From Mucispirillum schaedleri (GTDB lineage: Bacteria > Chrysiogenota > Deferribacteres > Deferribacterales > Mucispirillaceae): DNA of 64,000 bases. The notes below the pieces were generated by a model. The model made no database searches. It was not told the origin of the DNA and was given only the letters and a program-made list of their open reading frames with translations. Position numbers and translations under genes: made by a program. The stretch covers positions 1 through 64,000 of the forward strand of contig CASEIN010000043.1 in NCBI GenBank assembly GCA_949287985.1, given 5' to 3'. Shown piece after piece: positions 33,891 to 41,495 of the stretch. Within the stretch, counting starts at the first letter, position 1. Each line of letters opens with the position of its first letter.

Positions 33891-35285
33891 ATGAAAGAAA
33901 TCTCAGGCGATTCTAAAATTGTCATGGGCTATATCTATTCTGCATTATTCTGGGGTGTTATAGGTCTTGTATTAGGTCTTCTCATCTCTGCACAAATGTG
34001 GAGTGTTAGCTTTAACTTTGGAGAGTATTTTTCATTTGGCCGTCTTAGAACGGTTCACACAAACATGCTTGCTTATGGGCTTGGTATTACAGCTGAAATG
34101 GGTGCATTCTATTATATTATAGGTCGCCTCACAAAACGTAACCTTATTTTCCCTGGGCTTGCTAAATTCCAACTTGTATTCTATAATATAGTTGTACTTG
34201 TTGGTATGATTTCACTTTTTATGGGTTATACTCAATCACTTGAGTATGCAGAAGGTGAATGGTATTTCGACCTTGGTGTTGTAGTAGCATGGGTATTATT
34301 TGCAATTAACGTTGTAGGTACTATTCTTACTAGAAAAGAAAAACATATGTATGTTTCATTATGGTATATTTTAGCAACTATCGTAGCTGTTGCTGTATTA
34401 TACATTGTTAATAACTTACATTTAATTGCAGGTTTTGATAAATCTTACCATTTATTTGCAGGTTTAAACAGTGCAAACGTTGAATGGTGGTATGGTCACA
34501 ATGCAGTTGGTTTCTTATTTACTACACCAATATTAGCTGTATTTTACTACTTCTTACCAAAATCAACAGGTATGCCAATATACAGCCACAGATTATCTAT
34601 ACTTTCTTTCTGGTCATTAATTTTTATGTATTTATGGACAGGTGCTCACCACCTTGTTTACACACCACTTCCAGACTGGTTACAAACATTAGGTATTGTT
34701 TTCACAATACTTTTAATTGCACCATCTTGGGGTTCTGTTGTAAACGGTTATTTAACACTTGCACCAGACTGGTCTAAACTTAGAACTGCATATTTAGCAA
34801 AATTCTTTATTGCTGGTATTACATTCTATGGTTTACAAACATTACAAGGTCCAACACAAGGTCTTCGTGCTGTTAGTTCTCTTATCCACTATACAGACTG
34901 GGTTCCAGGACACGTTCACATGGGAACAATGGGTTGGGTTGTATTAACAGTTACTGCTGCAATCTACTATATTACAGCAAAAGTTTATAAAACAGAAATA
35001 TACAGTGAAAGCATTGCTAATATTCATTTCTGGCTTGTTCTTATAGGTCAGATAGGCTTCTCTATTACAATGTGGATTACAGGTATCCGTCAAGGTCTTA
35101 CATGGAAAACATTTAATTCCGATGGAACATTAGCTTATGCATTTATTCAAACACTTGTTGGAAACTATCCTTACTGGATTTTAAGATCTGTATTTGGTGT
35201 AATATTCATTGTTGGTATGCTGTTCTTCCTTTACAATTTCATTATGACAGTTGTAAAAGGAAAACAAAACTTATCTAATCAATAG
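33891..35285 (+). CDS. ccoN: cbb3-type cytochrome c oxidase subunit I (CcoN)
   Basis: A 464-residue heme-copper oxidase catalytic subunit, with about 12 membrane helices. Assignable metal ligands are H56 (RTVHTN) and H343 for the low-spin heme b, H341 (GHVHMG) for the high-spin heme b3, and H203 (YGHNAVGF), H253 and H254 (GAHHLVY) for copper B. The tyrosine cross-linked to copper B in cbb3 enzymes is probably Y313 (ITFYGLQT). It reduces oxygen to water at the inner membrane with high oxygen affinity. Its codons look more selected than those of neighbours (more TTC, TAC, AAC and CGT), suggesting high expression. It begins an operon with all other oxidase genes. Confidence 0.97.
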   Translation: MKEISGDSKIVMGYIYSALFWGVIGLVLGLLISAQMWSVSFNFGEYFSFGRLRTVHTNMLAYGLGITAEMGAFYYIIGRLTKRNLIFPGLAKFQLVFYNIVVLVGMISLFMGYTQSLEYAEGEWYFDLGVVVAWVLFAINVVGTILTRKEKHMYVSLWYILATIVAVAVLYIVNNLHLIAGFDKSYHLFAGLNSANVEWWYGHNAVGFLFTTPILAVFYYFLPKSTGMPIYSHRLSILSFWSLIFMYLWTGAHHLVYTPLPDWLQTLGIVFTILLIAPSWGSVVNGYLTLAPDWSKLRTAYLAKFFIAGITFYGLQTLQGPTQGLRAVSSLIHYTDWVPGHVHMGTMGWVVLTVTAAIYYITAKVYKTEIYSESIANIHFWLVLIGQIGFSITMWITGIRQGLTWKTFNSDGTLAYAFIQTLVGNYPYWILRSVFGVIFIVGMLFFLYNFIMTVVKGKQNLSNQ

Positions 35286-35296
35286 GAGTATGAGAT

Positions 35297-36208
35297 ATGA
35301 GTGAAAATAATAACAGTATATACAGTAAAGGGCTTGTTTTTACAGTTGTTGCATTGGTAGTTATACTTGTTGGTACAATAGTTACAGTGTTTATCCCGAT
35401 GATGACATCTTCTATGCACCCAAAACTTTCTAATATGCAGGAAAATCCTTATACTCCATTACAGCTTGCTGGACGTGATGTATATCAAAAAGAGGGCTGT
35501 ATTAACTGCCACTCTCAAACAGTTCGTCCATTAAAAGCAGATGTGTTAAGGTATGGTGAAATATCACAACCTGGTGAAAGTGCTTTTGAACGTCCATTCT
35601 TATGGGGTTCTAAAAGAACTGGTCCAGATTTAGCAAGGGTAGGTGGTGTTTACTCTGATGAGTGGCATAAAGCTCACATGATTAACCCACAACACTTTTT
35701 CCCAAGCTCAAATATGCCTAAATATCCATGGCTTGCTGAGAAAAAATTAGACCCTGCAACAGTTGAAAAACATGCTAAAACATATGGTTTAAAATATACT
35801 CAAGAAGATATTGATGCTCTTGCAGATGCAACAGAGCTTGATGCATTAGTTGCTTATCTTCAACAATTAGGGATTTATGTAAAAAATACTCATGCAATTA
35901 AAGCAGATGAAACTGCATTTGCTAATGCGGTAAATCCAAATTTAAATAATCCTGAAAAAATTGCAAAAGGCGAAGAAATTTATAACTTATTATGCATAGG
36001 CTGCCATGGCGAAAATGGTAAAGGCTCTGCAGAAGGTTATGATCTTACAAATGTGACATTTGCTGAAGCATTACCTGATTATACAGATGGTATGATGTTT
36101 TTAATAATTGCTAATGGTGAGCCAGGAGTAATGCCTAGTCATTTAAAAATAATGACTAAAGATGACATTTGGTCTGTTGCTGCTTATGTTAAAACATTAG
36201 CAAAATAA
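35297..36208 (+). CDS. ccoO: CcoO (cbb3 subunit II) fused to a CcoP-like cytochrome c domain
   Basis: A 303-residue protein with one N-terminal membrane helix (about residues 12-35). Residues ~45-195 are a typical CcoO mono-heme cytochrome c domain, with the heme site C68-IN-C71-H72 (EGCINCHSQTVRPL) and axial methionine M140 (SSNMPKYPW). Residues ~215-303 are a second, class-I cytochrome c domain with C233-IG-C236-H237 and a likely axial M279 (GVMPSH). Ordinary CcoO is about 200 residues with one heme. This tail looks like one cytochrome domain of CcoP. The usual two-heme CcoP gene is absent, and the gene right after encodes just a CcoP-type membrane anchor. So the oxidase would carry two, not three, heme c groups. 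Confidence 0.9.
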   Translation: MSENNNSIYSKGLVFTVVALVVILVGTIVTVFIPMMTSSMHPKLSNMQENPYTPLQLAGRDVYQKEGCINCHSQTVRPLKADVLRYGEISQPGESAFERPFLWGSKRTGPDLARVGGVYSDEWHKAHMINPQHFFPSSNMPKYPWLAEKKLDPATVEKHAKTYGLKYTQEDIDALADATELDALVAYLQQLGIYVKNTHAIKADETAFANAVNPNLNNPEKIAKGEEIYNLLCIGCHGENGKGSAEGYDLTNVTFAEALPDYTDGMMFLIIANGEPGVMPSHLKIMTKDDIWSVAAYVKTLAK

Positions 36209-36226
36209 TATAAAGGAGGAATTAAT

Positions 36227-36436
36227 ATGTCTAATTTTGATGAACAAGATGATATCCCTAGCTTAAACCGCAAGGATACAGAAAATAATCTTCCTTTAGG
36301 CTGGGTAATCTTTTTTCTGGCATTAATAGTATGGGGTATTTACTACATCTATGCATACACTCCAAAATTTGGTGGTTGGACACAAAATAGTGCATATGAA
36401 AAAGAAAACCCTGTTGTAGAACAAATGAAACCTTAA
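36227..36436 (+). CDS. Stand-alone CcoP/FixP N-terminal membrane-anchor protein
   Basis: A 69-residue protein with one membrane helix (about residues 26-46). DDIPSLNRKDTENNLPLGW, the helix ending YIYAYTPKFGGWTQNSAYE, matches the start of CcoP (pattern D-x-I-x-x-x-D-N-x-L-P-x-W, then helix, then YPxxG). CcoP normally continues into two cytochrome c domains; here the gene stops. It sits 18 bases after the CcoO fusion, with AAAGGAGG before the ATG. It probably takes the structural place of CcoP's anchor in the oxidase. An alternative is a CcoQ-like small subunit, but the NNLPLGW motif favours CcoP. Confidence 0.75.
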   Translation: MSNFDEQDDIPSLNRKDTENNLPLGWVIFFLALIVWGIYYIYAYTPKFGGWTQNSAYEKENPVVEQMKP

Positions 36437-36451
36437 TTTAGGGAGAAAAAT

Positions 36452-36670
36452 ATGCAAGATAACGGAAGCACTATTGCTACAGAAACATTAGCTCAAGAAA
36501 GTGAACAATTACAATCTGCTGCTGCAGGTTATGTTGTGCTAGGGTTTGAATTTCTTCTAGTACTAATTCTTATTGGGATAGCTGTTTATTTCTTTTCTTC
36601 AAAAAGAAAGGCGTCAGTTGAATCTCCAAAATATTCTATGATGGAAGACGATGACGATGATAGCAAATAG
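36452..36670 (+). CDS. Small single-span membrane protein with a CcoS-like acidic tail (possible CcoQ)
   Basis: A 72-residue protein with a Gln/Ser-rich start and one membrane helix (about residues 27-49), then SSKRKASVESPKYSMMEDDDDDSK. Its position between the CcoP anchor and ccoG is that of ccoQ or ccoS. Its tail (SPKYSMMEDDDD) is very like the tail of the ccoS product at 38291 (GPKYRMLDDDDD), so the two may be paralogues. CcoS is needed for heme insertion into CcoN; CcoQ stabilises the complex. Which one this represents is unclear. GGGAGAAAA lies before the ATG, and its last bases overlap the ccoG start. Confidence 0.7.
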   Translation: MQDNGSTIATETLAQESEQLQSAAAGYVVLGFEFLLVLILIGIAVYFFSSKRKASVESPKYSMMEDDDDDSK

Positions 36671-37820
36671 TGTTATCCGTGGAAAAATATACAGGCTGCT
36701 GCAATTTATTGTTGCAGCCTGTGCTTTAATAATTCCTTTTATAAAAACATCAAATGGAAACAGTCTTTTTAGATTTGATGTATCTACTTTACAGCTTCAT
36801 GCATTTAATAGTGTAGTCAGTTTTGCAAGTTTCTTTTCTGCATTTATTGCAATTTTATTATTTACTTTTTTATTTATATTTACTACTCAGCTTCTTGGCA
36901 GGGTATGGTGTGGCTGGCTTTGTCCTCAATCATTTTTTTCAATAAGGATAGAATCTTATTCAAAAAAAATTAAAAATAAGACTATGAGAAGAATTGCAGC
37001 TGTTTTACTTGCTTTTTTATTTGCTTTAGTTTTGACACTAAACTGGATGATGTATTTTGTATCTCCATATGATTTTATTTCATCACTTAAAAGCAGCAGC
37101 ACAATGGTTACTATTGGAGTAGTATTATTTTTATTTATTTTTATAGATTTTTCTATCGTTCGATTTAAATGGTGTAAATATGTATGTCCTTACTCAAAAT
37201 TCCAAGTGGTAATGACTGATGATGATACGCTTTATGTAGGTATGATACCGGGTAAAGAGAAAGAATGTATTGATTGTCATGCATGTATAAGAGTTTGCCC
37301 AACCCATATTGACCCTAGAAAAAATCCTGATGCAGATTGTATTTATTGTGAAACATGCGTTACTGCTTGTAACCATGTATTTCAAAAGAAAGATCATCAT
37401 GAAGGAATTCTAGGATATGTTTGGGGAAAAAGTAATAAATTAAATATTAAAAGACCACAATTAATAATTACTTTTGGTTTATCTGTCCTTTTATTTATTC
37501 TTTTAATTTTCAATATTATTTCAAGTAGTGAACCATTTAGAATATCTGTTGATGGTGTAGCGAAAAATATTGGAAATGGTGAATATACTGTTAATATTAA
37601 GCTAAAAAGTAATTTAGAAAAAGCAGTTAGGGTTCACCTTACAAATCCAGATAATGTAGCAGAAGTTAGCCCAAAGGGTATAAGAGTTTTTATAAAAGCA
37701 TCTGTTAGTCAAACAATAAATATTAAAGTTTTAAAAGAGATACCAAATAATACTATTTACTTGAATGCTGTTTATGACAGAGCTAAACCACCTATTCAAC
37801 TGGAAATAAAACTAAAATAA
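36657..37820 (+). CDS. ccoG: Cytochrome c oxidase accessory protein CcoG (copper reductase/Fe-S protein)
   Basis: A 387-residue polytopic membrane protein that reduces Cu(II) to Cu(I) for cbb3 assembly. Membrane helices lie at about residues 10-30, 45-80, 110-135, 145-160 and 270-290. The Fe-S motifs are ECIDCHACIRVCP followed by CIYCETCVTACNHV, with the membrane cysteines in WCGWLCPQSFF and CKYVCPYSK. The C-terminal ~100 residues are an Ig-like domain (NIGNGEYTVNIKL). It overlaps the preceding gene by 14 bases. I prefer ATG 36657 (GGAAGA 8 bases before) to ATG 36651. Confidence 0.93.
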   Translation: MIANSVIRGKIYRLLQFIVAACALIIPFIKTSNGNSLFRFDVSTLQLHAFNSVVSFASFFSAFIAILLFTFLFIFTTQLLGRVWCGWLCPQSFFSIRIESYSKKIKNKTMRRIAAVLLAFLFALVLTLNWMMYFVSPYDFISSLKSSSTMVTIGVVLFLFIFIDFSIVRFKWCKYVCPYSKFQVVMTDDDTLYVGMIPGKEKECIDCHACIRVCPTHIDPRKNPDADCIYCETCVTACNHVFQKKDHHEGILGYVWGKSNKLNIKRPQLIITFGLSVLLFILLIFNIISSSEPFRISVDGVAKNIGNGEYTVNIKLKSNLEKAVRVHLTNPDNVAEVSPKGIRVFIKASVSQTINIKVLKEIPNNTIYLNAVYDRAKPPIQLEIKLK

Positions 37821-37835
37821 AAGAGGATTATTATA

Positions 37836-38285
37836 ATGAAACCAATGATAGCATTAATAGCAACTGGCGTTATATTATTACTTATTATGTTATATTTTGG
37901 CAATACTAGTTTTGAAGGAACATTTGAAACAAATGTATACCAAAATTCATTAAAATATGATAAAACTGCCCCTATTATTAAAGAACTTGAAAGCATGATT
38001 ACTGATGTGTCTTTTGAATATGATGAAACTGTAAAAAGAACAAAAGTCAATTTTAATAGAGATGAAATTAAGATTAAATATCCAGATTCCTTGTTTTATG
38101 GTGTTTATATTACATATCCTAATAAACCAGATATTATCGAAGTCGGTCTATATAAAGATGAGCCGTCCGTATCTTATGAAATAGAAGGGAAATTACCTGC
38201 TGGTTTATATAATGTTATATTTGATATTCATTTGAATTCGCAAATTGGAACGTTAAAAGTTATGAAATCCGTTTATGCTGAGTGA
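37836..38285 (+). CDS. ccoH: FixH/CcoH-family oxidase assembly protein
   Basis: A 149-residue protein with one N-terminal membrane helix (about residues 4-22) and an extracytoplasmic domain. It follows ccoG and has the FixH layout: helix, a short ~15-residue segment of small/polar residues, then beta-rich repeats (VKVNFNRDEIKIKYP-like, YGVYITYPNKPDI, VSYEIEGKLPAGLYNVIFDI). CcoH/FixH works with CcoI and CcoS in building the oxidase, but sequence conservation is low. I base the call on position, size and topology. Confidence 0.75.
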   Translation: MKPMIALIATGVILLLIMLYFGNTSFEGTFETNVYQNSLKYDKTAPIIKELESMITDVSFEYDETVKRTKVNFNRDEIKIKYPDSLFYGVYITYPNKPDIIEVGLYKDEPSVSYEIEGKLPAGLYNVIFDIHLNSQIGTLKVMKSVYAE

Positions 38286-38290
38286 GATAG

Positions 38291-38461
38291 ATGACTTCAT
38301 TATTTGTATTGATATTACTAAGCCTTGTTGTTGGAATTAGTGCTTTTGCTTGGTTTATATTTTCCAGTAAAAAAGAGCAGTTTGATGATATTGAAGGTCC
38401 AAAATATAGAATGCTTGATGATGACGATGATGAAGATGTAATGCAAAAACCTAAAAAATAA
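38291..38461 (+). CDS. ccoS: cbb3-type oxidase assembly protein CcoS
   Basis: A 56-residue single-span protein, too short for many gene finders. It starts at ATG 38291, 5 bases after the ccoH stop. A membrane helix (residues ~3-25) is followed by KKEQFDDIEGPKYRMLDDDDDED. FDD-hydrophobic-E-GP-x-x-R-hydrophobic-LxDDD is the signature of CcoS, needed to fit heme and copper into the catalytic subunit. In other bacteria ccoS lies next to ccoI in a ccoGHIS operon; here it comes just before the HMA-like gene and ccoI. Confidence 0.92.
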   Translation: MTSLFVLILLSLVVGISAFAWFIFSSKKEQFDDIEGPKYRMLDDDDDEDVMQKPKK

Positions 38462-38494
38462 ATTATTTTTATACTTTTAGTGGTAGGGGTTTCT

Positions 38495-39067
38495 TTGAGT
38501 GTAAATATTAAAAAATCTGACAAGAATACAGATATTAATAAAATAGATGATGTATTATTATCTCATCAAATAGATGCTTTTGCTTTTGAACATTCTATTA
38601 AGAGTAATACTTCTGGAACAGATGAATTATATTTTAATCTTGTAGATTCTCTTTCTTATAATGAATTTAAAAAAGCATGTTCAAAAATATCAACAAACAA
38701 TGATTATATTCAATCTGTTATATTTTTTGGTAACAAAAATAATTTCAAAGCATGTTTAGTTTTTAACCATAAAGAAATATCTCTTAAAGAAATATTAGTA
38801 TATATAATAGATTTAGGGTATAAACTAATACCAGCAAGTAATAAAAAAAATGAAAAAATAAATAAAGATGATGGTAAGTCATCATGTTTTAAAGAAAATG
38901 TATTATTTATTTTTACATCAATACCTGATGTTTTTATATTTTTTATAAAAGTTATATGGCATATCTTTAAGTTTATTATAGATGGTATTTGGTATGCAGT
39001 AATATTTATTTTTAAAAGTATATATTATATTTTTAAATTTATGTTTGATTTAATAACTGATTGGTAG
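38495..39067 (+). CDS. HMA-like domain without metal cysteines, joined to a hydrophobic tail
   Basis: A protein of about 190 residues between ccoS and ccoI. Residues ~45-115 resemble a heavy-metal-associated ferredoxin fold: VIFFGNKNNFKACLVFN, then ISLKEILVYIIDLGY. The last run is strikingly like ISIKEVLQKITRLGY at the end of the HMA domain of the next gene, CcoI. The CxxC metal loop is missing. Residues ~138-187 are a long hydrophobic, aromatic-rich stretch (several F-I-F-K repeats), probably two membrane or membrane-surface helices. I prefer the TTG at 38495 (AGGGG 5 bases before); a GTG at 38480 is the alternative. Function unknown; a CcoI regulator or partner is inference from position. 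Confidence 0.65.
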   Translation: MSVNIKKSDKNTDINKIDDVLLSHQIDAFAFEHSIKSNTSGTDELYFNLVDSLSYNEFKKACSKISTNNDYIQSVIFFGNKNNFKACLVFNHKEISLKEILVYIIDLGYKLIPASNKKNEKINKDDGKSSCFKENVLFIFTSIPDVFIFFIKVIWHIFKFIIDGIWYAVIFIFKSIYYIFKFMFDLITDW

Positions 39068-39074
39068 CAGAAAA

Positions 39075-41495
39075 ATGGAATTAAAAGATACATCTCAAAC
39101 AAATAAATCTATATGTGCACACTGTTCTTCTGAAGTTAACCCAAAACATGCAATAAAGGAGGATGATAAATTTTTTTGCTGTGAAGGATGCAGGTCTGTT
39201 TATCATTTAATTAATGATGAAGGCTTTGGCTCATTTTATACAAAAAGAACAGACTGGGACGATGCTCCACCAGCAGAGCAGGTGGAAGCTGATGAAGAAT
39301 ATTTTCTAACATCTGTAAAACCACTAAAAAATGGTGATTTAGAATTATCTATTATGATTTCAGGTATACGTTGTGCTGCTTGTATTTGGTTAATAGAATC
39401 ATCTGCTCAAAAAGATGAACGAATAAAAATGTTTCGTGTTAATTATGCAAATCATAAAGCAAAAATTATTTTTAACCCACAAGATATATCTATAAAAGAA
39501 GTATTACAAAAAATTACTCGTCTTGGATACTGCCCATTACCATCAAACAATATTGAAACTATCCATGATAAAGAGCGTAAAGATTATTTTTACAGGTTTG
39601 GGGTAGCAGTATTTTTTACAATGCAGGTAATGATGTATTCCATAGCAAACTATACAGGCTATTTTAAAGGAATGGAAGAAAATTTATACTTTCTTTTTCA
39701 ACTTTTATCATGGGCATTAGCCACACCAGTGCTTTTATATTCTGCAGCACCATTTTTCCAAAAAAGTTATGCTGCACTTAAACATATGCATTTTACTATG
39801 GATACATTAGTTGCACTAGGTTCAGGAACGGCCTATATCTATAGTGTTGCAGCTATCTTTTTAGGTTATGAAGCATATTTTGATACTTCTGTTATGATAA
39901 TTACTTTAATACTTTTAGGCAGGTTTATAGAAGCCGGGGCAAAACAAAAGGGCAGCAATGCTGTTGCAAAACTATTATCATTAAAACCAAAAAATGTAAA
40001 AAAAGCGGTAAAAAATGAAGATGGTAGTTATTCATATATTGTTATTCCAATTGAACAGTTGGAAAAAAATGAACTATTTGAAATAAGTGCTGGGAATAAC
40101 ATAGCTGCTGATGGCAGAATTATATCTGGTATTTGTGAAATTGATGAATCTATGCTTACTGGAGAGCCAATGCCTGTAAAAAAAGAGGAAGGAAAAGAAG
40201 TATATGCTGGAACAAAAGTTATTACAGGCTCTTGTATTGTAATGGCTGAAAGAGTAGGGCATGACAGCTTTCTTTCAAAAATTGCAGCATCTGTTGATGA
40301 TGCTCAAAGCTCAAAAGCTCCAATACAAGATATTGCTGATAACTTTATTGGTAAATTTGTACCATTTGTTCTTATTGTTGCACTTGCAACATTTTTATAC
40401 TGGTATTTCTTTGCTTCATTAGAAGTTGAAACCTCTATTATGCGTGCTGTTTCTGTTCTTGTAATTGCATGCCCATGTGCTATGGGGCTTGCTACGCCAC
40501 TGGCAATAATATCATCATCTACTAAATTATCTGAAACTGGCATTATCTTTAAAAATGGTGAAGCTATTGAGCGTTATGCTCGAGTAAATGACTTTTATTT
40601 TGATAAAACAGGAACTATTACAAAAGGAGATATGAGTGTTAATACATATCAACTGATAGATGATTCTCCATTAATATTAAATTTAATATCATCTGCAGCA
40701 TTTTATTCAAAACACCCTGCATCAAAAGCTATATCTATGTTAAACAAGGAATTATATAAATATCAGGCTTTTGAAGAAATAGCAGGTGAGGGTGTGTATT
40801 CAGAAATTGAAGGGCATAAAGTTTATATTGGTTCTAAAAACTTATTAACAAAAAATAATATTGAAATATCTAAAGATTATGAAAAGATTATTGATGAATA
40901 TTTAAGTAAAGGTTTAACTTTAGTTTTTGTTTCAGTTAATAATAGATTTATGGGAATATTTGGTATATCAGATACAATTAGGCAGGAGGCTGCTTCAACT
41001 ATTTCATTGTTACAAAATGAAGGTAATAATGTATCTATAATTACTGGTGATAATGAGAAATCTGCTACAATTATACTTAATAATGCAGGAATAAATGCTA
41101 AAGTAATTGCTAATGTATCACCATTTGATAAAGGAAATATTTTACAGAATGCTAGAGATATATCAAAAACTGTAATGATAGGTGATGGTATTAATGATGC
41201 TATTGCTTTAACATCGGCAAGTGTTGGTATATCCATGCGAAATTCAACAGATATTTCTATGGAAAGTTCTTCTGCAGTTTTACTTCGTAATGACTTGACA
41301 GTAATAGAGGAATCCCATAAAATTTGTAAGAAAACATTAAGAATAATAAAAGAAAATTTATTCTGGGCATTCTCTTACAATGTGGTTGCAATACCTCTTG
41401 CTGTTACTGGATTTATTCACCCAGTAATGAGTGCAGCATTTATGAGTTTTAGTTCTTTATTTGTTGTAACTAATTCAATGCGTATTAGAAAATAA
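39075..41495 (+). CDS. ccoI: Copper-translocating P-type ATPase CcoI (FixI)
   Basis: An 806-residue P1B-type ATPase that moves Cu(I) outward for the cbb3 catalytic site. The N-terminus has C14-x2-C17 and CCEGC (35-39), typical of CcoI. The HMA domain follows with C100-AAC103. The membrane CPC motif is C466-P-C468, the phosphorylated D510 is in DKTGT, and TGEPMP (actuator) and GDGINDA (hinge) are normal. The operon order (ccoN, fused ccoO, anchor, small protein, ccoG, ccoH, ccoS, HMA-like, ccoI) ends here. The stop is only 4 bases from the convergent methyltransferase gene, leaving no room for a terminator. Confidence 0.95.
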   Translation: MELKDTSQTNKSICAHCSSEVNPKHAIKEDDKFFCCEGCRSVYHLINDEGFGSFYTKRTDWDDAPPAEQVEADEEYFLTSVKPLKNGDLELSIMISGIRCAACIWLIESSAQKDERIKMFRVNYANHKAKIIFNPQDISIKEVLQKITRLGYCPLPSNNIETIHDKERKDYFYRFGVAVFFTMQVMMYSIANYTGYFKGMEENLYFLFQLLSWALATPVLLYSAAPFFQKSYAALKHMHFTMDTLVALGSGTAYIYSVAAIFLGYEAYFDTSVMIITLILLGRFIEAGAKQKGSNAVAKLLSLKPKNVKKAVKNEDGSYSYIVIPIEQLEKNELFEISAGNNIAADGRIISGICEIDESMLTGEPMPVKKEEGKEVYAGTKVITGSCIVMAERVGHDSFLSKIAASVDDAQSSKAPIQDIADNFIGKFVPFVLIVALATFLYWYFFASLEVETSIMRAVSVLVIACPCAMGLATPLAIISSSTKLSETGIIFKNGEAIERYARVNDFYFDKTGTITKGDMSVNTYQLIDDSPLILNLISSAAFYSKHPASKAISMLNKELYKYQAFEEIAGEGVYSEIEGHKVYIGSKNLLTKNNIEISKDYEKIIDEYLSKGLTLVFVSVNNRFMGIFGISDTIRQEAASTISLLQNEGNNVSIITGDNEKSATIILNNAGINAKVIANVSPFDKGNILQNARDISKTVMIGDGINDAIALTSASVGISMRNSTDISMESSSAVLLRNDLTVIEESHKICKKTLRIIKENLFWAFSYNVVAIPLAVTGFIHPVMSAAFMSFSSLFVVTNSMRIRK

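Follow-up and report, generated by a model that had tools for sequence, protein, structure and literature searches.

Classical cbb3-type oxidases of the CcoNOQP type, as found in Pseudomonas and Rhodobacter, contain three c hemes, one of which is bound by CcoO and two by CcoP. In enzymes with such a diheme CcoP, electrons are transferred from a soluble or membrane-bound cytochrome c to the CcoP hemes, then to the CcoO heme and via heme b to the b3-CuB site (PMC7876108). The structure of a supercomplex shows the CcoP helix at the interface to complex III, near helices 8 and 9 of CcoN, and earlier work, as cited in the same paper, has cross-linked CcoH to CcoP and CcoN (PMC7876108). A fusion of CcoO with a cytochrome c is already known as well and has been named in NCBIfam, where the model NF011054 (PRK14486) is described as putative bifunctional cbb3-type cytochrome c oxidase subunit II/cytochrome c. 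This model covers the fused protein only and does not include an adjacent heme-less anchor. As CcoP is usually taken to be the electron-input subunit, a genome in which ccoP is not recognised is interpreted as encoding a partial cbb3 oxidase. Such a reading was published in 2026 for Deferribacter, whose cbb3 oxidase was reported to be partially encoded, with ccoP not found and a mono-haem CcoO (PMC13186404). For a pair consisting of a fused CcoO and a heme-less CcoP anchor, no description was found in the open-access literature; an earlier description in a subscription journal is possible.

The window analysed here comprises 64,000 nucleotides of contig CASEIN010000043.1 (C43) of Mucispirillum schaedleri. 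The source genome has a size of 2.44 Mb on 79 contigs and an estimated completeness of 97%. An operon on the plus strand of the window (33891-41495) encodes in sequence CcoN, CcoO with an additional cytochrome c domain, a short CcoP anchor, a CcoQ-like protein, CcoG, CcoH, CcoS, a protein of 195 aa, and CcoI. These genes probably encode a complete cbb3-type oxidase with a periplasmic relay of two c hemes and a structural, redox-free anchor; its likeliest history is that a CcoP-type cytochrome domain was fused to CcoO long ago and that CcoP subsequently lost its own heme domain. The catalytic subunit CcoN (33891-35285, 464 aa) matches Pfam COX1 above the cut-off with 335.8 bits. Its best subfamily models are those for cbb3 subunit I, NF011053 (499 bits) and TIGR00780 (490 bits), with both scores being lower than the curated whole-protein cut-offs (583 for TIGR00780); CcoN is thus assigned to cbb3 subunit I by a COX1 match above the cut-off together with cbb3 models as best subfamily matches. 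As this is the single COX1 match genome-wide, the operon encodes the sole heme-copper oxidase of the genome.

The accessory genes downstream of the anchor gene are also located on the plus strand; ccoG, ccoH, ccoS, and ccoI, together with the genes for CcoN and CcoO, constitute a gene set that is shared with the classical CcoNOQP systems. The small CcoQ-like membrane protein (36452-36670, 72 aa) is assigned by its position after the anchor and by a FixQ match of 19.7 bits, which is below the cut-off of 29. It is followed by ccoG (36651-37820; Fer4 domains, TIGR02745 below the cut-off with 159.6 bits), by a gene for a CcoH-like assembly factor (37836-38285; position and a weak FixH match of 19.4 bits, below the cut-off of 23) and by ccoS (38291-38461; FixS 54.5 bits, TIGR00847 above the cut-off). 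The operon ends with ccoI, encoding a copper P1B-type ATPase (39075-41495; TIGR01511 505 bits, ATPase-cat_bd and HMA domains). The 195-aa protein encoded between ccoS and ccoI (38480-39067) has a hydrophobic C-terminal half and no heme motif, and it matched no family above threshold in profile family searches. The CcoQ-like protein and CcoS have similar acidic tails, SPKYSMMEDDDDD and GPKYRMLDDDDDED, respectively, which suggests that the protein in the CcoQ position may be related to CcoS.

The CcoO protein (35297-36208, plus strand, 303 aa) consists of a conventional CcoO part and a C-terminal class-I cytochrome c domain. Its two CxxCH motifs at positions 68 and 233, read from the ORF translation, are the putative heme sites C68-H72 and C233-H237; among the other ORFs of the window with at least 80 aa, CxxCH motifs are found in CcoG alone. 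Residues 9-175 match Pfam FixO above the cut-off (224 bits), and TIGR00781 is passed with 204 bits at a cut-off of 200.65. Together with C68-H72 and a membrane helix, these matches identify the N-terminal part as a FixO protein of the cbb3 type. The additional domain that had been proposed from the sequence alone was confirmed by profile matches above the cut-offs, to Cytochrom_C at residues 222-301 (58 bits) and to Cytochrome_CBB3 at residues 221-298 (52 bits), which include the second CxxCH motif. The residues M140 and M279 are invariant in an alignment of 10 diverse fused homologues, in agreement with the earlier suggestion that they are likely axial methionines, and can be regarded as candidate axial ligands of the two hemes.

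An AlphaFold2 model of CcoO, calculated as a single chain and of middling confidence (pLDDT 77.5, pTM 0.60), places the membrane helix at residues 12-35. In this model, residues 7-198 resemble the solved CcoO 3mk7_B (Z 12.8) and residues 197-303 resemble class-I cytochromes c. The two parts are connected by a linker of approximate boundaries (about residues 196-215; 35882-35940, plus strand), which are given by the end of the match to CcoO at residue 197 and by the start of the Pfam matches of the cytochrome domain. The fused domain itself spans about residues 216-303 (35941-36205, plus strand) and contains C233-H237 and the candidate axial ligand M279. The architecture corresponds to that of NF011054, with residues 5-300 of CcoO aligning to positions 2-289 of the 294 positions of the model. 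With 347.2 bits, the cut-off of 447 is not reached, and the protein is therefore a homologue of the same architecture rather than a certified member of this family.

Both ccoO and the following gene are preceded by clear ribosome-binding sites, which for the latter is a strong aaggagg (36213-36219, plus strand). This gene (36227-36436, plus strand) encodes a protein of 69 aa with one transmembrane helix and a YTPxxxGW(S/T)Q segment. The protein matches FixP_N with 28.3 bits at a cut-off of 24.9, a margin of 3.4 bits, and passes no other family. It has no CxxCH motif and lacks the cytochrome c domain of a CcoP; it should accordingly be addressed as a CcoP anchor and not as a CcoP, as judged from these features of its sequence. 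In a search of the PDB with a profile built from the anchor alignment, CcoP chains ranked first (E 6.8e-5). The profile aligns with residues 49-82 of 3mk7_C, with a second short match at residues 91-103 (GWTQEK), and the anchor ends ahead of the first heme domain of CcoP, which starts at about residue 124 in 3mk7_C. Thus, helix and GWTQ segment are shared with CcoP/FixP proteins (TIGR00782; solved structures 3mk7, 6xkw, 8smr, and 9g83), whereas the cytochrome domain is missing. This supports the sequence-only reading, in which the gene following ccoO had been taken for the CcoP anchor alone. Within-genus pN/pS comparisons show that CcoO, its fused domain, and the anchor are under purifying selection; for the anchor, seven out of eight comparisons gave a pN/pS of 0.11-0.22, and the remaining one has few synonymous changes. 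A ccoP gene that is truncated or frameshifted by sequencing error was rejected, as the same short gene under purifying selection is present in dozens of independent genomes.

The arrangement is not restricted to the window. Of 51 phylum genomes searched, 40 have a FixP_N match; NF011054 covers most of a fused CcoO in 36 and part of it in three more, with its cut-off of 447 being exceeded in five genomes. Reading of the individual loci showed that a fused CcoO gene is directly followed by a heme-less anchor gene at 35 loci of Deferribacterota, including the window. The same pair is present at 21 loci of Nitrospirota (the phylum of L082) and at 19 loci of Myxococcota of the Anaeromyxobacter type (Anaeromyxobacter oryzae at L089). 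The occurrence in dozens of loci across three phyla indicates a stable and widespread arrangement rather than a local oddity. While the gene order expected from the window was thus recovered in related genomes, the view that it results from a local rearrangement does not hold, given this conservation and the NCBIfam model that already exists for the CcoO fusion. A tblastn search of plasmids yielded mostly partial CcoO matches and a few longer but weak ones.

Operons are assembled from homologous parts in four ways: a one-heme CcoO with a one- or two-heme CcoP, a fused CcoO with a one-heme CcoP, a fused CcoO with a heme-less anchor, and a one-heme CcoO with a heme-less anchor (L070, L071, and L211). 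The first type includes operons of Chlorobiaceae and some Nitrospirota with monoheme CcoO and monoheme CcoP, for which two c hemes are predicted as for the window; in these operons the second heme is located on CcoP, whereas it is located on CcoO in the window. The second type is represented by Desulfuromonadales-type operons and by one genome of Deferribacterota (G003), which encode a fused CcoO as in the window but a CcoP that keeps one heme, resulting in three predicted c hemes. A sample around the genome G055 contains 13 fused loci, mostly of the Desulfuromonadales type; 10 of these have a heme on CcoP and three (L250, L251, and L260) have a heme-less CcoP. The fourth type is found in the Deferribacterota genomes G004 and G005. 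For L070 and L071, which belong to the same class of Deferribacterota, and for L211/L270 from Nitrospirota, a single heme c is predicted in the cbb3 operon. The gene for the one-heme CcoO and the anchor gene are separated at L070 by a stretch with a repetitive translation. The anchors themselves also vary in length. Most anchors of the Anaeromyxobacter type (L215-L225, L227-L229, L231, and L233) have about 90-100 aa with a second hydrophobic stretch that ends in a basic tail and is absent from the anchors of Deferribacterota and Nitrospirota. The second hydrophobic stretch is possibly a fused CcoQ-like helix.

The genome was scanned by family profile searches. Apart from the gene for the 69-aa protein, FixP_N was found nowhere in the genome above the cut-off, and TIGR00782, the model for ccoP, had no match above the cut-off; besides noise, the weak TIGR00782 matches comprise the anchor, the fused domain, and a diheme cytochrome encoded at C43:96.3 kb. 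TIGR00782 did not exceed its curated cut-off in any of the 51 genomes of the phylum either. On the basis of these FixP_N and TIGR00782 searches of the own genome and of the phylum, a hidden ccoP was rejected, in agreement with the sequence-only reading, which had noted that a two-heme CcoP gene does not follow ccoO. None of the outcomes that could have spoken against this reading arose in silico, i.e. a ccoP elsewhere, an anchor not matching FixP_N, or a C-terminal part of CcoO not matching cytochrome c. The agreement of these observations clearly exceeds what chance could produce.

A replacement for CcoP, either full-length or soluble, could nevertheless be encoded elsewhere, so that the enzyme would keep three c hemes. 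Candidates are the other cytochromes c of the genome, namely the diheme cytochrome already mentioned (C43:96.3 kb), which is c4-like, and a protein with four heme motifs beside genes for a Rieske protein and cytochrome b; furthermore, an operon in the Nitrospirota genome G250 includes a gene for a protein of 111 aa that has one heme site and an N-terminus resembling a signal sequence. Both genomic candidates have other likely partners, however, as the diheme protein is encoded beside a flavoprotein, which by eye is similar to the flavin subunit of flavocytochrome c sulfide dehydrogenase, and the four-heme protein beside Rieske/cytochrome b. Together with FixP_N matches that are limited to the 69-aa gene and TIGR00782 matches above the cut-off in 0 of 51 genomes, this renders a replacement CcoP rather improbable. 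Even less probable is an oxidase that is degenerate or incomplete. This is implied by the published annotation of Deferribacter relatives mentioned above, in which ccoP and ccoQ were not evidenced (PMC13186404), but it is contradicted by the full accessory set of ccoGHS and ccoI within one operon, by the purifying selection that acts on CcoO with its fused domain and on the anchor, and by the conservation across three phyla. A similarly remote possibility is that the 69-aa ORF encodes a single-helix peptide of generic type or a PsbW-like protein not related to CcoP. In a phmmer search with the single sequence, photosystem PsbW was indeed matched (E 0.0045), but with the anchor alignment profile this match drops to E 0.71 with the CcoP chains at the top, and kinship with PsbW was rejected. 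Each of the 13 diverse proteins in the anchor alignment has a match to FixP_N and to none of the other families, and the true monoheme CcoP of locus L262 begins with the same helix as the 69-aa anchor. A complete oxidase with a CcoP-derived anchor is thus the reading that is followed here.

How the domains came to be distributed in this way depends on the kinship of the fused domain. In hhalign comparisons, its best match is to monoheme-CcoP domains (E 4.8e-37), followed by the first (1e-25) and the second domain (1e-22) of diheme CcoP. An origin specifically from the second heme domain of CcoP is not supported, as this domain is the most distant of the three in the profile comparison. Among single PDB domains, cytochrome cL (68 bits) scores higher than the CcoP domains (54 and 44 bits), so that the evidence for kinship to CcoP comes from the monoheme CcoPs; a solved structure of such a protein did not turn up in the PDB search. 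VIA-align/Foldseek comparisons leave the origin unsettled, as the C-terminal domain is about equally similar to many class-I cytochromes. According to the sequence-only reading, the fused domain is a relocated CcoP domain. A literal cut and rejoining, in which the cytochrome domain was excised from the CcoP of the lineage and joined to CcoO in one step, with the anchor remaining, would fit to the closeness to CcoP-type monoheme domains and to the fact that domain transfer between neighbouring genes does occur, as the same parts are joined at L262 in the manner of an ordinary CcoP. The CcoO tree unites the fused-plus-anchor operons of Deferribacterota, Nitrospirota, and the Anaeromyxobacter type in one group (100/99), from which three fused-plus-anchor operons of the Desulfuromonadales type are excluded. 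The neighbours of this group are Desulfuromonadales-type operons that mostly keep a monoheme CcoP (91/85). Within these sister operons, the fused domain and the monoheme CcoP domain are 33-47% identical and are placed apart in the domain tree, as old paralogues would be, which suggests that the fusion is older than the loss. An old fusion of CcoO with a cytochrome followed by loss of the CcoP heme domain therefore fits better, and the simplest history would be that the fusion occurred first and the loss more than once; this order rests on deep forks of the domain tree, which are weakly resolved with about 100 columns. In comparison, cutting and rejoining appears possible but unneeded and is the less likely, indeed an unlikely, history.

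Relocation of a domain between genes is directly indicated for L262 only. At this locus (L262/L268; G782:C37, ca. 24.4-25.0 kb, minus strand), an intact operon encodes a one-heme CcoO of 194 aa followed by a CcoP of 175 aa, which is composed of an anchor and a cytochrome of the types found in the fused arrangement but in the usual order. With the profile of the fused domain, the heme domain of this CcoP reaches 127 bits, compared with at most 88.5 bits for other CcoP domains. This heme domain nests among fused Nitrospirota domains in the domain tree (97/85), and the respective CcoO nests beside the same Nitrospirota in the CcoO tree (98/84). The position within the fused clade indicates that the cytochrome domain has changed its place at least once, and the nesting in both trees suggests that its transfer at this single locus most likely proceeded from CcoO to the anchor, which is the direction opposite to that of cutting and rejoining.

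For the enzyme encoded in the window, a shortened electron path can be proposed. Electrons would be transferred from a periplasmic donor to the fused cytochrome c domain of CcoO, from the fused heme to the CcoO heme, and further via heme b to the b3-CuB site of CcoN. The fused heme domain, which is connected to CcoO by a tether of about 20 residues, would substitute for the CcoP hemes. Two rather than three c hemes had been expected for this complex, and two sites are predicted here for CcoO and none for the anchor. The proposed change of the electron path stands insofar as the path would be shorter by one heme; it would not be re-routed, and operons with two hemes and a monoheme CcoP provide a precedent. 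Upstream, the electron source is possibly a cluster that encodes a Rieske protein, a split cytochrome b, and a cytochrome with four CxxCH motifs (L247; G000:C72, ca. 19.5-21.7 kb, minus strand). This cluster may represent an unusual bc-type complex that feeds the cbb3 oxidase. As the genome has such a cluster and encodes few small cytochromes c, electrons could conceivably come from a donor that acts directly or over a short range.

The anchor would be a separate structural subunit with no redox function, which probably packs on CcoN and serves assembly or stability together with CcoQ and CcoH. A structural or assembly role is argued for by its persistence without a heme, even beside a one-heme CcoO. 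The anchor is kept even at loci whose CcoO is without the second domain, be it through loss or otherwise (L070, L071, and L211), which points to retention independent of any heme domain, and these operons would imply functional oxidases that contain only one heme c. The same parts are thus placed as CcoO-heme plus anchor in the window, as CcoO plus anchor-heme at L262, and as CcoO plus anchor at L070, L071, and L211. Whether this generally reflects a CcoP helix that is a structural subunit kept independently of heme, and a modular cytochrome domain that can reside on CcoO, on the anchor, or be absent, is an evenly balanced question.

The finding stays within a well-known enzyme family. The anatomy of the window suggests an oxidase that is complete but differently packed, which would correct an annotation habit, and respective operons can be searched for by a CcoO of more than about 285 aa with two CxxCH motifs and an adjacent FixP_N protein of 60-100 aa. 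The two classical roles of CcoP, holding the complex together and electron intake, are separated in this arrangement, and the role of the CcoP helix, apart from that of the CcoP hemes, becomes directly testable. A cytochrome outside CcoO and the anchor is encoded in a fused-CcoO operon in the Nitrospirota genome G250 (L269:3669-4004), in which the 111-aa cytochrome is located between ccoH and a ccoI-like gene and resembles a detached monoheme-CcoP domain.
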